64,000 bases of DNA, taken from contig NZ_CP006951.1 in NCBI RefSeq assembly GCF_000830885.1, positions 1,116,001 to 1,180,000 on the forward strand, written 5' to 3'. The notes beneath the pieces were generated by a model. The model searched no databases. It worked only from the letters and a program-made list of their open reading frames with translations, and was not told where the DNA came from. The position numbers and the translations under genes are program-made. This document shows, piece after piece, positions 35,001 to 63,003 of this stretch (positions are counted from its first letter, which is position 1; the number at the start of each line of letters is the position of its first letter). Source of the DNA: Dehalococcoides mccartyi CG5 (GTDB taxonomy: Bacteria > Chloroflexota > Dehalococcoidia > Dehalococcoidales > Dehalococcoidaceae).

Positions 35001-35009
35001 TGTTTTACA

Positions 35010-35250
35010 GACTAGGAATGAGATTAGTAGGTCTAAAGCGAAGCTCAGAGAGCCGGGCAAGGTGAGAGCCGGTGCTAGCGCATAGAACTGAATGGACTCA
35101 GGAGTCGCAGGCCGAAAAAGGAAACTTGAGTAGGTTTTGACGGAAGGGCACCGTTATCAAAGCCTAGGGTATCGCTCTGAGAAATCCGGGCCGCACCCGA
35201 AAAAAGATATTCCTGTATTTTTTGCAGGGATAATTAGGGTGGCACCGCGA
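35010..35250 (+). promoter_or_regulatory. Tryptophan T-box leader
   Basis: The T-box sequence AGGGTGGCACCGCG is at 35236-35249, preceded by a typical long stem I region. A TGG specifier triplet lies at 35093-35095 in GAATGGACTC. The antiterminator bulge reads TGGC, whose C would pair with a G discriminator; tRNA-Trp at 17156 has exactly that. Uncharged tRNA-Trp should therefore stabilise the antiterminator and turn on the trp genes. Confidence 0.93.
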
Positions 35251-35255
35251 AGGTT

Positions 35256-35295
35256 AATCCCTCGCCCCTAAAAAGGACGAGGGATTTATTTTTTT
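35256..35295 (+). terminator. T-box-controlled terminator before trpE
   Basis: AATCCCTCG (35256-35264) pairs with CGAGGGATT (35278-35286), followed by a run of T. Its 5' arm follows the T-box sequence, as in standard T-box attenuators. Confidence 0.93.
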
Positions 35296-43191: not shown

Positions 43192-44679
43192 TTAGTAACT
43201 GGTGTCAATACCGTAGGTGAAGTCATCCATATCCCACCACTCTTCGGGGTCTTTCCGCCCGTAATCCATAGCTTTTTCCATATTTGTAAAGAAGCTATTT
43301 AAAAGCGGGGTATTGGCAACTGTGCCCTTAACCACAGCATGCAGGAATGAATCCGGTTTGCTGTTGAAGGGGCAAGTGCCCTGACAAGTGGGGCAGTGAG
43401 GACAATCTGCGGTATTGGTTCGCCAGCCCTCAAATGTGCCCTGCTGAATGCCGGACTTGGCTGAAGCCGGGTTTTCCCAGGTGGGGTCACCCTTCTGGAT
43501 AAGCCCGAAAGGACAAGCATCCGCGCAAATACCGCAGGTTTTGCAGAATTTGTAGGCACCAAAGTCTATGGGCGGAGTGGGCAGCAAGGGCAGGTCGGTG
43601 ATTAACGCCCACATAGCCCGGTTAGTTACCCCGTATTTGGGAGTAATAGTGGGTGAAGACATACGGCCATGTTCGCCCATGCCGGAAAAAGCCGCCAGAG
43701 GGCTGGTAAGGTAACCCTTCATTCCCGGATTCAAGGCCTGATAACCCAAACCGCGGATAAATTCCTGAATCTGCACACCTACCTTGGGCAGGCGGGAATA
43801 AGAATACCAAACAGCATAGTTTTCAGTTATACCAGCCTGGCGACGAGTGCCCTCGAGAGATTGTCTGGCACTCCACATCAGTACCCACTTGCACTTGCGG
43901 GGGATAACCATCTTGGTTGTGGTCTCATAAGCTTCCTCTACGTCTTCAATAACCAGGTCTTTACCACCAATTTTAGAGTGAAAAAACTTCAAAATATCGT
44001 CATCAAGTTCAAGGGCTGCCACATCCGAGCCGCCAAAGAATCTAATGGCAGAGCGGCAGGTTTTAAGGTTTTCTTCGGGAGTACCCTGCCAGACCGGAGC
44101 CCCGAAAACCTGGGGACGGGTAGTAGTATCCAGCTGAGGCCCCAACCACGGAGTAAAGGTAGGGCTGCCGCCGGCCGCCATAATAGCCGCTTGAACATTA
44201 ATCCTTTTACCGCCCATTTCCATATTGCCGGGCCAGGCACCCATCATCATAAATTTGGAAGCATTGCACAGGGCGGTGGTTCGGGTATCTCCCATACCGG
44301 CATAGCCCGGAGTCCAGCCCGGAAACTCCTTGGCCATAGCATCATAAAGAGTCAGGGCCATTTCAGGGGTTTCAAGGTCAGTGGAAGTACCGCCGACAAC
44401 GCCGGCTTTTGTGAAATCAGCTACAGTGGGTCTGGGTAAAGTCTTAAACGTGCCCGCATGGCGGGTAATTTTGGGCCAATCCATTGGTACGGTAGGATTT
44501 TTGAAATCCCTTTCCTTTACCCACCAGGGATTTTTATTGATACCGATTGCCGAAGATGTGACCTCATCCAAATCGTGGAAAACGGGGGCGGCAGCGCTCA
44601 AAGTACCCAAACCTGCTCCGACTACCCCAAGGCTTTTCATAAAATCACGTCGCGAGAGTGTGGAATGGAAATTAGACAT
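43192..44679 (-). CDS. rdhA: Corrinoid iron-sulfur reductive dehalogenase RdhA (first copy)
   Basis: RdhA reductively removes halogens as terminal step of organohalide respiration, with a corrinoid and two Fe-S clusters. The 495-residue precursor begins with a Tat signal (LSRRDFMKSLGVVGAG, residues 8-23). Two Fe-S motifs are clear: CKTCGICADACP near residues 379-390 and CPHCPTCQGTCP near 424-435, both C-x2-C-x2-C-x3-C-P. There is no classical B12 DxHxxG motif, as usual for RdhA. The substrate cannot be read from sequence. Its promoter lies in a 13-bp tandem repeat followed by a conserved leader. Confidence 0.95.
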   Translation of the reverse strand: MSNFHSTLSRRDFMKSLGVVGAGLGTLSAAAPVFHDLDEVTSSAIGINKNPWWVKERDFKNPTVPMDWPKITRHAGTFKTLPRPTVADFTKAGVVGGTSTDLETPEMALTLYDAMAKEFPGWTPGYAGMGDTRTTALCNASKFMMMGAWPGNMEMGGKRINVQAAIMAAGGSPTFTPWLGPQLDTTTRPQVFGAPVWQGTPEENLKTCRSAIRFFGGSDVAALELDDDILKFFHSKIGGKDLVIEDVEEAYETTTKMVIPRKCKWVLMWSARQSLEGTRRQAGITENYAVWYSYSRLPKVGVQIQEFIRGLGYQALNPGMKGYLTSPLAAFSGMGEHGRMSSPTITPKYGVTNRAMWALITDLPLLPTPPIDFGAYKFCKTCGICADACPFGLIQKGDPTWENPASAKSGIQQGTFEGWRTNTADCPHCPTCQGTCPFNSKPDSFLHAVVKGTVANTPLLNSFFTNMEKAMDYGRKDPEEWWDMDDFTYGIDTSY

Positions 44680-44698: not shown

Positions 44699-44745
44699 CA
44701 ATATTTAGTCTTTCCTATAGCCACCTGGTCTTCCCCGAGAGCCAA
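44699..44745 (-). promoter_or_regulatory. Conserved 47-nt leader element of rdhA (first copy)
   Basis: This block in the 5' untranslated region is identical at 46 of 47 positions to 46930-46976 before the second rdhA, while most other upstream DNA has diverged. On the minus strand it starts TTGGCTCTCGGGGAAGACC. It contains a direct repeat GGGGAAGAC / AGGAAAGAC at 20-nt period. A TTG frame in it could encode 16 residues (MALGEDQVAIGKTKYW). An AGGAGG lies at 44757-44762, followed by ATG-TAA. Not recognised as a known riboswitch. Confidence 0.7.
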
Positions 44746-44783
44746 CTTACATACAGCCTCCTAACATATATTTGGTATATTGC

Positions 44784-44834
44784 TAGTATACGATTATAGT
44801 ATACGATTATAGTGGCCGCAGCATAGGTAGTAAA
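44784..44834 (-). promoter_or_regulatory. Promoter and tandem-repeat operator of the first rdhA operon
   Basis: On the minus strand, TTTACT (44829-44834) and TATAAT (44806-44811) are 17 bp apart. The -10 is the start of a tandem repeat: TAGTATACGATTA at 44784-44796 and again at 44797-44809 (plus strand), each with a GTATAC palindrome. A repressor bound here would block the polymerase. The same arrangement precedes the second rdhA. Confidence 0.75.
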
Positions 44835-45008
44835 TAGGACTAAAGGCCTAGTCTTTCTAAGCATTTAGTATATTTCTAGCAGAATATAAAATAGAAAACC
44901 CTGTACGGTACATCCATATAACTAATATTTGAGTTTATATCTACCAGGATATTGGATAACGAGCGTATACAGATATCAGAAAAAACTACCAAATATCAAT
45001 GAGGCTAT

Positions 45009-45043
45009 ATAATCCATAACCTAAACGCCAACAGCTATATCAG
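45009..45043 (+). pseudogene. Relic of the 5' end of a marR gene
   Basis: The DNA from 44784 to about 45043 aligns with 47017 to about 47275 upstream of and into the intact marR. From the operator to the start codon the distances are 225 and 223 bp. At the position of the marR ATG this copy has ATA (45009-45011), and about 35 bp of degenerate coding similarity follow before it ends at the terminator of the second rdhB. GGCTAT before the start is kept. This appears to be the truncated partner regulator of the first rdh operon. Confidence 0.65.
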
Positions 45044-45054
45044 GCCTGGGCAAA

Positions 45055-45090
45055 AACCAGAGGGGGAGACCCAGGTCTCCCCCTCTTTTA
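45055..45090. terminator. Terminator after the second rdhB (bidirectional)
   Basis: AGAGGGGGAGACC (45059-45071) and GGTCTCCCCCTCT (45074-45086) form a long perfect stem. On the minus strand it is followed by GGTTTTTG, on the plus strand by TTTA. Confidence 0.85.
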
Positions 45091-45113
45091 ATCAATACAC
45101 GGGTAATTGAGAT

Positions 45114-45386
45114 TCAGGCTTTCTTTATACGCCTGGCAGCCAATTGCCATGAGATTGCCAGCAGAATAAGGCCGGGCAATCCGATAACCAGCAGGAACAT
45201 AGAGGCTGCTTTGCTCTCCAATTCATCCAGACTGCCAACAAAATTCTGGATGGTAAAGAGAATCAAAGCCATGCCGATAATCCCTATCAGCCATTCATAC
45301 CAGGTAAGACTGAAATTACCCCGTTTCATCAGCCAAACAAGCCCAAGCAGCAGGGCACCGATAATTAAACCAATAATAAGCCACAT
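45114..45386 (-). CDS. rdhB: Reductive dehalogenase membrane anchor RdhB (second pair)
   Basis: This 90-residue protein has three hydrophobic segments (about 2-18, 30-48 and 64-82) and the conserved SLTWYEWLIGIIG block. It matches the first RdhB in length and layout. GGAGAG lies before the ATG, 29 nt after the rdhA stop, so the two genes form an operon that ends at the strong hairpin at 45059. Confidence 0.93.
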   Translation of the reverse strand: MWLIIGLIIGALLLGLVWLMKRGNFSLTWYEWLIGIIGMALILFTIQNFVGSLDELESKAASMFLLVIGLPGLILLAISWQLAARRIKKA

Positions 45387-45415
45387 ATTTTCACTCTCCT
45401 ATAATGCATTGGGGT

Positions 45416-46909
45416 TTATTTGTTATAACCGCCTTGACTTGAGGTAGCGGCACTGTCAAACCCGTAAACCGGCATAGACAGATCCCACCAGGCTTCCTTG
45501 TCTTCAGTCAAACCGTAACCAAAGAATTTATCTGCCTGCCACAAGAATGAATTCAACAACGGCGTAGTTGCCAATGTAGTCCTGACCAGCTCATGGATAG
45601 GAGCATTATTAGTATTGAAAGTACAAGTAGCCATACAGGCACCGCAGCCGTTGTACTCAGTCAAGAAAAGCCAGCAATCAAGGGCATTCGTCCAGTACTG
45701 TTTTCTTCCCGGAGAATGCGTGATATCCGGCTTGCCATAAACAGTCGGCAACTCCCAAGAGGGTTCATGATCTTTGGGTATGGCGTTTACAGGGCAGGCA
45801 TCTGCACACTTGGTACAGGTCTGGCAGAACCGCCAGATACCGGCATCGATGGGGTTAGTAGGTTCAAGAGGCATGTCGGTAACCAAACTGAACACCCCAA
45901 GTATAGGCCCGTATTCGGGGCTGGTGCAGAAGCCATTGTTTCGGTTTCCTTCCGTAATACCGGTTAACTGGGCGCTGGCAATTGCGGGCATCATACCGGA
46001 AAAGGGTGACGCGTAACCGTAACAGGTATAGCCAAGTGAGCGGATAAATTCCTGAATACAATTTTGGATATTACCGAAAAGCCGATAACGAGACAGATTG
46101 GCCGAATACATTATCTGGGATTCGTTAGCCGTCCTGAACATATCTTTGGACATAGGCACAGTGAAACAGAATTCATAAAGCTGTTTATTGGACGGCAGAA
46201 CAAATGTAGTCGCCCCTTCATAACCCTGCTCCACATCTTCAAATAAATATGATTTACCCAATGCAGGCGGCGGGGGGAAATTTTCAACAAAGCCAATGGA
46301 GTTGGCAGCCCCTTTATGATTGGTAAATACCAGCTTGTCTTTAATTTTCTGGTCTATAACACCAAAACCAACCTGCCCTCCACCATAGAAGATTACCGCA
46401 GACCGCAGCATCCGGCTATTTTCCTCAGGAGTACCCTGCCAGACCGGGACACTTAAGCTTTGAGGTGTAGCCACTTTCTGGGGACCCATAAAAGTAGTCA
46501 CATAAGGCAAATTCATAAAATAGCCCGCGCCGGATGAAAGAGCGTAATCTCTCAGTGTCTGACCGGGGGTATCATGGGTAATGGCCTTTACCTTGTTGGT
46601 CAGGACATTGGCGTATCTCTTCTTTATTTCGTCCGCACCCAGATATTTGGCTTGGATACCGGGCGCTTGCGCTGTCTGACGGGCATCCCATCTATTCATC
46701 AAAGACCAGTCAATTTCGGTAGTGGGATTATCCGCCTCCCGGTATTTCACCCACCAGGGTCGTTTCCATTCAGCCTTAGGCGAAGAAATAATATCATCCA
46801 AATCGTGAAAAACCGGAGCAGTTGCCGCCGCAGTTCCAAGACCGGTCCCTAATATCCCCAGTCCTTTCATGAAATTACGGCGACTAATAGTGTGATGGAA
46901 ATTAGGCAT
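45416..46909 (-). CDS. rdhA: Corrinoid iron-sulfur reductive dehalogenase RdhA (second copy)
   Basis: The 497-residue precursor has a Tat signal (ISRRNFMKGLGILGTG, residues 8-23). The first Fe-S motif CQTCTKCADACP lies near residues 361-372. The second is spaced differently from the first RdhA: one Cys in ALDCWLF near residue 412, then CGACMATC about ten residues later, giving C-x9-C-x2-C-x3-C without the usual following proline. The substrate is unknown. It is transcribed divergently from marR (47240), shares its upstream region, and has the same operator repeats and leader as the first rdhA. Confidence 0.95.
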   Translation of the reverse strand: MPNFHHTISRRNFMKGLGILGTGLGTAAATAPVFHDLDDIISSPKAEWKRPWWVKYREADNPTTEIDWSLMNRWDARQTAQAPGIQAKYLGADEIKKRYANVLTNKVKAITHDTPGQTLRDYALSSGAGYFMNLPYVTTFMGPQKVATPQSLSVPVWQGTPEENSRMLRSAVIFYGGGQVGFGVIDQKIKDKLVFTNHKGAANSIGFVENFPPPPALGKSYLFEDVEQGYEGATTFVLPSNKQLYEFCFTVPMSKDMFRTANESQIMYSANLSRYRLFGNIQNCIQEFIRSLGYTCYGYASPFSGMMPAIASAQLTGITEGNRNNGFCTSPEYGPILGVFSLVTDMPLEPTNPIDAGIWRFCQTCTKCADACPVNAIPKDHEPSWELPTVYGKPDITHSPGRKQYWTNALDCWLFLTEYNGCGACMATCTFNTNNAPIHELVRTTLATTPLLNSFLWQADKFFGYGLTEDKEAWWDLSMPVYGFDSAATSSQGGYNK

Positions 46910-46929
46910 TTTTTAATTTTCCTTTTTAT

Positions 46930-46976
46930 CAATATTTAGTCTTTCCTATAGCCACCCGGTCTTCCCCGAGAGCCAA
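46930..46976 (-). promoter_or_regulatory. Conserved 47-nt leader element of rdhA (second copy)
   Basis: Matches 44699-44745 at 46 of 47 positions. On the minus strand the TTG frame here ends one codon earlier (16 codons including TGA) and carries CGG for CAG. An AGGAG lies at 46991-46995, but the ATG-TAA of the first copy is not conserved. Confidence 0.7.
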
Positions 46977-47016
46977 TTTATTTCAGCGATCTCCTTTCAT
47001 ATATTCAATTATATTA

Positions 47017-47067
47017 TAGTATACGATACTAGTATACGATTATAGTTACAGATATTATATTGGTCAA
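47017..47067 (-). promoter_or_regulatory. Promoter and tandem-repeat operator of the second rdhA operon
   Basis: On the minus strand, TTGACC (47062-47067) and TATAAT (47039-47044) are 17 bp apart. The plus strand has TAGTATACGATAC at 47017-47029 followed by TAGTATACGATTA at 47030-47042, the same 13-bp tandem unit as before the first rdhA. It is the likely MarR site and could also influence the divergent marR. Confidence 0.8.
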
Positions 47068-47239
47068 TAGGCCTTAAGGCCAAGAAAGCTAAGCATTTAG
47101 TATATTTTTAGCCCAATAAGACAATACTTAAACCTGCACACCTCATTTTTAAATCAAATATTTGTATTTACCCCCCAAGATATTGTTTAATAAGCGCATA
47201 CACATAGTAGAGAAAACTACTGAATACCAAGAAGGCTAT

Positions 47240-47752
47240 ATGACTCACAGACTAAGGGAAAACGGCTACGCAATATGGTCCACACTTATGCAGGCAAGGG
47301 TTGCTGCCTATCACGTACGCAGAAAAGACCTGCTGGAGTACGGCGTTTCCCCTGAACAGGCGGGCATACTGGAACGTCTGTATCATTCCAAAGACAAAAC
47401 AATGACACCCACCCGAATAGCCGAATTGTATTTCCGTCAGCCAAACACCATTACCGCCATATTGAGAAACATGGAGAAAAAAGGGCTGGTCGAACTCACC
47501 AAAAACTTGGAAAGAAAAAATATGATTCGGGTATCTATTACCGAAAAAGGTATGCAGTTAAGAGAAACTATAAGCACCAATCTCACTGAAACACGTAAAA
47601 TATTTGATGTCTTGTCTGACGAAGAGTTGGACCAACTGGAAAACATGCTCTTAAGAATACGGGATAAATCCATAATCCAAACTTCATCATCCAAATTCAA
47701 TGCTACCCGCAGACTTGATCAAATTCATGAATCTGACGGGCAGATAATCTAA
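47240..47752 (+). CDS. MarR family regulator of the rdh operons (Rdh2R-like)
   Basis: From ATG 47240 the protein has 170 residues. The winged HTH covers about residues 30-110: VSPEQAGILERLYHSKDKTM, TPTRIAELYFRQPNTITAIL, RNMEKKGLVELTKNLERKNMIRVSITEKG. It is divergent from the second rdhA, which fits local repression. I recall that in strain CBDB1 the MarR protein Rdh2R in this position represses the neighbouring rdh genes; assigning this gene to it is inference from gene order. The open frame begins at 47162, but AGAAGG before ATG 47240 and conservation in the relic favour the shorter form. Confidence 0.88.
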   Translation: MTHRLRENGYAIWSTLMQARVAAYHVRRKDLLEYGVSPEQAGILERLYHSKDKTMTPTRIAELYFRQPNTITAILRNMEKKGLVELTKNLERKNMIRVSITEKGMQLRETISTNLTETRKIFDVLSDEELDQLENMLLRIRDKSIIQTSSSKFNATRRLDQIHESDGQII

Positions 47753-62651: not shown

Positions 62652-63003
62652 GGGGACGCGTGGTTTCGACAGGGAAGGTAGGCTACTGGATTGCAGGCTG
62701 AGGTGCCATCCACCTCATTAAACAGGTGGCAAAAAACAACTGGCGAACGTGAACTCGTTCTTGCTGGCTAAATAAGACAGCACATCCTGCTTGGCCCCAC
62801 CTCAACGGGTCAGGTTTGGGTGCCGATTAGTTGAGGTGCCGTTTCCCCAACGCCGATGAGGGGGACGAAAGAAATATCGGCTGGTTTGGCTAAATTAGGC
62901 CGGCAAAAGCTAGCCAGACAAGATTAAATAGACGGATAATCCTGTAGTAGATCCTGGGTCACCTTTTCTGGACGGGGAGTTCGACCCTCCCCCGTCTCCA
63001 CCA
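62652..63003 (+). ncRNA. ssrA: tmRNA (transfer-messenger RNA)
   Basis: The 5' end GGGGACG pairs with CGTCTCC at the 3' end, followed by A and an encoded CCA at 63001-63003. The 3' end also has the T-arm GTTCGAC. The tag frame at 62742-62771 reads GERELVLAG and stops at TAA. It tags proteins from stalled ribosomes for degradation. The last 80 bp overlap, in antisense, the end of the recombinase gene. Confidence 0.96.

Follow-up and report, generated by a model that had tools for sequence, protein, structure and literature searches.

The two nearly identical blocks that precede reductive dehalogenase (rdhA) genes in this part of the Dehalococcoides mccartyi CG5 genome are arrays of small hairpins with covarying stems, which belong to the sense strand, occupy a leader position and occur class-wide before rdhA and other genes for exported proteins. 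We propose a cis-acting array in the mRNA leader, read by a putative RNA-binding factor that would control translation or mRNA stability, and give this reading a probability of roughly 0.55. The window, i.e. the whole stretch of 64,000 nucleotides that was analysed, contains two copies of the element, both on the minus strand and with 3' ends 19-20 nt short of the rdhA ATGs. Direct comparison of the two 47-mers, which start 66 and 67 nt upstream of the respective ATGs, confirmed the earlier observation of a single mismatch (46 of 47 positions identical). The core pattern of the element has two exact matches in the window, compared to 0.04 expected. The features of the two loci are as follows.

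43192..44679, minus strand: rdhA gene 3' of copy 1 (ORF and domain matches; TAT signal, PF13486, TIGR02486)
44704..44744, minus strand: copy 1 element core (model R1 match, 58.9 bits; 1160704-1160744 in the genome)
44704..44719, minus strand: copy 1 hairpin 2, UAG-GAAAGA-CUA, three inner pairs (sequence; register from the covariation alignments)
44722..44741, minus strand: copy 1 hairpin 1, CUCUCGG-GGAAGA-CCAGGUG, one C·A mismatch (sequence; register from the covariation alignments)
44747-44752, minus strand: ATG-TAA after the copy 1 AGGAGG box (sequence)
44757..44762, minus strand: copy 1 upstream ribosome-binding box AGGAGG (sequence; box kept in 59/67 elements)
44785..44807, minus strand: two operator-like ATCGTATACT repeats upstream of copy 1, outside the RNA element (sequence comparison)
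45416..46909, minus strand: rdhA gene 3' of copy 2 (ORF and domain matches; PF13486, TIGR02486)
46935..46975, minus strand: copy 2 element core (model R1 match, 62.7 bits; 1162935-1162975 in the genome)
46935..46950, minus strand: copy 2 hairpin 2, UAG-GAAAGA-CUA (fold and covariation alignments)
46953..46972, minus strand: copy 2 hairpin 1, CUCUCGG-GGAAGA-CCGGGUG (fold and covariation alignments)
46990..46997, minus strand: copy 2 upstream ribosome-binding box AAAGGAGA, without an ATG at the usual place (sequence)
47018..47040, minus strand: two operator-like ATCGTATACT repeats upstream of copy 2, outside the RNA element (sequence comparison)
47162..47752, plus strand: MarR-family regulator gene, divergent from the copy 2 rdhA (ORF and domain match); the gene may in fact begin with the ATG at 47241

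The RdhA proteins encoded behind copies 1 and 2 are only 35% identical, which excludes a recent duplication as the cause of the 47-mer identity and rules out that the copies are conserved only because of a very recent origin. The sequence-only reading had described the upstream DNA as heavily diverged. This was too strong, since the 200 nt upstream of both copies are 69% identical, compared to 49% for shuffled sequence, and share operator-like ATCGTATAC repeats. Promoter-like sites were found upstream of copy 1 (TTTACT-17-TATAAT, ending at 44806) and of copy 2 (TTGACC-17-TATAAT, ending at 47039). They agree with the earlier placement of the element inside the mRNA, although the transcription start is only predicted and such sites are no commoner in these leaders than in shuffles. 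No terminator-like site was detected in either window leader. Dependence of the element on a MarR operator was considered and rejected, as ATCGTATAC-type repeats precede only a minority of elements. At one locus of another genome (G038, L132), the element again adjoins a MarR gene, whose product is 38% identical to that of the window, with a TCGTTTACGA site.

The block had been taken for a direct repeat without an obvious hairpin, but the repeats turned out to be the loops of two tandem hairpins, ~20 nt apart. The minimum-energy fold of copy 2 contains both of them (CUCGG-GGAAGA-CCGGG and UAG-GAAAGA-CUA). The copies differ at one base only (CAG in copy 1, CGG in copy 2), with the loss of a C-G pair from stem 1 of copy 1, whose 88-nt fold has a z-score of +0.55; hairpin 2 consists of three pairs only in both copies. 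About 70 relatives of the element were found, and those recovered from other genomes by a loop-pattern search form the same two hairpins with stems of different sequence. In the first 16 of them, found by loop pattern and then chosen for their downstream gene and same register, covariation was 0.439, compared to 0.225 in shuffles. For 41 distinct elements it reached 0.465, compared to 0.209 in shuffles and at most 0.144 in slid controls, with double-sided (compensatory) changes at 10 of the 12 base pairs and 77 double-sided-change cells versus 30.4 in shuffles. Counted separately, 24 hairpins that were chosen by eye outside the Dehalococcoidaceae, some of them close relatives, gave 0.780 versus 0.174; most of the alignments were gathered with structure-aware models, which favours structure. 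The sense strand has 46 G·U pairs but 13 C·A mismatches, an excess in favour of the sense RNA being the functional molecule. Covariation, this G·U excess and the fixed leader position thus support an RNA control element, one of the readings initially put forward.

Each hairpin is made of a 4-7 bp stem and a hexaloop with the consensus G-N-R-A-G-A, in which A4 and G5 are present in 41/41 elements for both hairpins; GAAAGA and GAGAGA are the commonest loops. TGRC usually stands before both hairpins. The number of hairpins per leader varies from one to five (the maximum being found at locus L266), and they are spaced by 19-22 nt in the arrays.

Model R1 was searched against 156 Dehalococcoidales and 400 Chloroflexota genomes, with a noise floor of ~27 bits. 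Matches above noise were found in 3/3 Dehalococcoides genomes, in 8/8 genomes of a Dehalogenimonas-type sister genus of the same family and in a few others, and all matches >28 bits among the 400 genomes of the phylum were confined to the Dehalococcoidaceae; sub-threshold matches in other Chloroflexota were mostly chance matches inside coding regions. In the Dehalococcoidaceae, virtually all inspected carriers are either rdhA genes or genes for a divergent protein resembling reductive dehalogenases; their start codons lie ~20-45 nt 3' of the element, and a single orientation of the element relative to the gene was seen in all of them. About one third of the rdhA leaders of Dehalococcoides and Dehalogenimonas-type genomes carry at least one hairpin. 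With a strict stem scan, hairpins were detected in 7 of the 22 rdhA leaders of the present genome, to which the mismatched window copy is added, and in 11/39 in genome G030, where the covariance model adds a few. Some rdhA leaders have one hairpin, and four have a third one. As about two thirds of the leaders lack the element, it is dispensable for rdhA expression in general. The median pairwise identity of the RdhAs that bear it is 33.5%, indicating that the element has been kept while the proteins diverged.

An RdhA scan of the named genomes yielded 18 loci, with a strong element at only three places (one Dehalococcoidales MAG), and a scan of the named genomes with the conserved divergent dehalogenase-like protein gave no match. 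This protein, which has a TAT signal (L008 1558-3027; L043; L119), is preceded by the element in 3/3 genomes examined, and its Dehalococcoides and sister-genus versions share 85-95% identity, a conservation far above that of ordinary RdhAs. Its gene at 898 kb had been considered as OmeA, a respiratory-complex subunit. That assignment was dropped, as Pfam and NCBIfam show a divergent reductive dehalogenase-like protein (TIGR02486, 145 bits, under the 160-bit cut-off). Two further rdhA loci deserve mention: G034:C1:1531819-1534651 contains two adjacent rdhA genes with equal model scores (167.1 bits), which suggests a recent tandem duplication, and the rdhA frame at G001:C1:157985-158401 (plus strand; L074) has one in-frame TGA and may be a pseudogene.

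Model R2, built from a larger element set, was searched against 393 Dehalococcoidia genomes. Supported isolated matches were found in other Dehalococcoidales families, and outside this order the matches reached up to 44 bits (f165, f43 and f46). In other Dehalococcoidia, matches of 28-52 bits precede SBP_bac_5, DctP and Sec-signal genes: the gene 3' of the element encodes a SBP_bac_5 solute-binding lipoprotein at L253 and L255 and a TRAP DctP protein at L127, and Sec-type N-termini were recognized by eye at L251, L252, L256, L257, L266, L267 and L132. The exception is L254, where the gene behind the element has no evident signal; the gene at L265 is ambiguous. Judged from their predicted products, nearly all the genes behind the element outside the rdhA set would thus encode exported proteins. 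The SBP_bac_5 gene at L253 (860-2321) seems to be interrupted near its 5' end, its signal and body being in different frames.

The element has no match in Rfam at the gathering score, and a relaxed E-value (up to 10) gave only chance-level matches, in agreement with the initial reading, in which no known riboswitch was recognized. A candidate 'rdhA motif' (WRC-34-1) has however been published by Narunsky et al. in 2024 as a predicted structured RNA that lies just ahead of genes for reductive dehalogenases, for the most part in Dehalococcoides, with 18 examples and the label of a weak riboswitch candidate (PMC11109978). The window element likewise lies immediately upstream of such genes in Dehalococcoides. 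The elements collected here outnumber the examples described for that motif, extend to Dehalogenimonas-type genomes and to unrelated genes, and have the form of a repeat array. By its description, rather than by its structure, WRC-34-1 may correspond to the rdhA subset of the present elements, i.e. their Dehalococcoides part.

Among the known systems, the RNA targets of the ANTAR proteins EutV, NasR and AmiR resemble the element in having two small tandem hairpins with sequence-conserved hexanucleotide loops in mRNA leaders, and by rule their loops carry A as the first and G as the fourth base (PMC3369931). Two tandem hexaloop hairpins are indeed present here, although some copies have 1, 3 or 5. 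However, the GNRAGA loop does not follow the A1/G4 rule (0/41 for each loop), one to five hairpins stand at a fixed ~20-nt period whereas ANTAR targets have two at variable distance, and the present leaders lack the terminator overlap of the attenuation-type targets. Moreover, an ANTAR protein was found in 0/10 carrier genomes by a search that was positive in 96/201 Chloroflexota. The identification as an ANTAR target was rejected because of the loop rule, the absence of the protein from these carriers and the absence of a terminator. Targets of CsrA/RsmA share purine-rich loops, several sites per leader and the proximity to ribosome-binding sites, but the present loops, among which GAAAGA and GAGAGA predominate, lack a constant GGA, and no CsrA gene was detected in nine carrier genomes, the control searches being positive. 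The boxB RNA of phage lambda has a GNR(N)A pentaloop. By analogy, G1-N2-R3-(A4 G5)-A6 could fold in a GNRA-like manner and offer two flipped-out bases for recognition, although the present loop is a hexaloop in a tandem array, without boxA or phage context.

Upstream of the hairpins, an AGGAGG-like box was found 15-26 nt before TGRC in 59/67 elements, compared to 2/67 in a control window. In 39 of the 59 boxed elements an ATG follows 3-10 nt behind the box, mostly at 4-6 nt (14% expected). For the AGGAGG and ATG-TAA that had been pointed out in copy 1, the box, usually with an ATG, is therefore conserved among relatives, but the reading frame and the peptide vary. This conserved initiation site, together with the ATG-N6-TGA or ATG-TAA read in some copies, could suggest that rdhA is controlled through translation of a leader peptide or of an upstream ORF. 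The conserved leader peptide that had been considered is nevertheless unsupported: the start codons fall at random into the three frames of the element (15/21/16), the element varies in length by single bases (31-44) and 56/67 elements contain a stop in frame 0. The random frame and the single-base changes imply that no peptide is conserved, so that at most the act of initiation would count, and we regard control by such an ORF as most improbable. Many rdhA leaders without hairpins keep an AGGAGG box ~55-90 nt before the start codon (e.g. L018, L022, L027 and L028, in the window's own genome), and the box alone may therefore be functional. In the STAB-SD of cry3A, a ribosome-binding box acts as a 5' mRNA stabiliser. 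A box near the 5' end and the hairpins might likewise shield abundant mRNAs for exported proteins from nucleases, with no dedicated regulator. The conservation of the box despite a variable reading frame, the exported and plausibly abundant proteins encoded and the lack of a terminator in the leader are in line with this, but a stabiliser would need no invariant loop, TGRC flanks or fixed 20-nt period, and we hold it to be unlikely.

The purine loops might also pair, as GRRAGA with UCUYYC, with a trans-acting small RNA or the 3' end of 16S rRNA. Position 3 of the hairpin 1 loop is mainly A or G, as pairing with U allows. However, the loops of both hairpins always have A at position 4 (41/41) even though G also pairs with U, position 2 can be C (GCAAGA) and a candidate small RNA was not identified, which makes such pairing distinctly unlikely. 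Direct sensing of a small molecule, as the label of the published motif suggests, would fit a structured leader ahead of metabolic genes and the position of that motif, as described, directly upstream of reductive dehalogenase genes (PMC11109978). It is hard to reconcile with two or more small similar hairpins without junction or pocket, with their variable number and with the unrelated functions of the genes served, and a riboswitch appears very unlikely. Finally, the period of ~20 nt and the operator-like repeats nearby could reflect a DNA-level site, with a transcription factor bound to two direct repeats two helical turns apart. The stem covariation, the sense-strand G·U excess and the single orientation to the gene in all inspected carriers leave this a near-negligible chance.

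Invariant loops, TGRC flanks, a fixed period and a variable copy number are what would be expected of a multivalent protein-binding site. The proposed leader element would comprise two parts: a ribosome-binding box (AGGAGG), in most cases followed after 4-6 nt by an ATG, and, ~13 nt later, one to five small hairpins ~20 nt apart. The near-invariant loop, which may form a GNRA-like fold and flip out A4 and G5 in the manner of lambda boxB, would be read by a dedicated RNA-binding factor that is probably multivalent or dimeric. Bound beside two ribosome-binding sites, this putative factor would set translation or mRNA lifetime. The location of the array between these two sites and the lack of a terminator-like site make translation or mRNA stability a likelier target than attenuation. 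Promoter-level control by MarR or two-component systems would act separately, upstream. More tentatively, and with somewhat less than even odds, the GNRAGA array and its putative factor may constitute a class-wide post-transcriptional regulon of the Dehalococcoidia, with joint control of the reductive dehalogenases and of further exported proteins, solute-binding lipoproteins among them.

Organohalide-respiring bacteria possess dozens of rdhA genes each, of which few are expressed; the known control of these genes is exerted at the promoter level, by MarR and two-component regulators. An RNA element common to a subset of rdhA leaders points to a second, post-transcriptional layer of control. 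Elsewhere in the Dehalococcoidia the element precedes unrelated genes for exported proteins, which suggests a mechanism of general use that dehalogenase genes have in common with them. The loop provides a handle for fishing out the partner protein of the element. If the proposal is true, the use of rdhA mRNA as an activity marker at polluted sites would be affected, as mRNA and protein need not run parallel.

Two other RNA features were noted in the window. A T-box leader (RF00230, 103 bits) is located at 35005-35272 on the plus strand, upstream of tryptophan biosynthesis genes (~37-42.8 kb), and a tmRNA gene (RF00023) at 62652-63003 on the plus strand. The tmRNA gene of Dehalococcoides is described as a known integration site of dehalogenase islands (PMC3146451).
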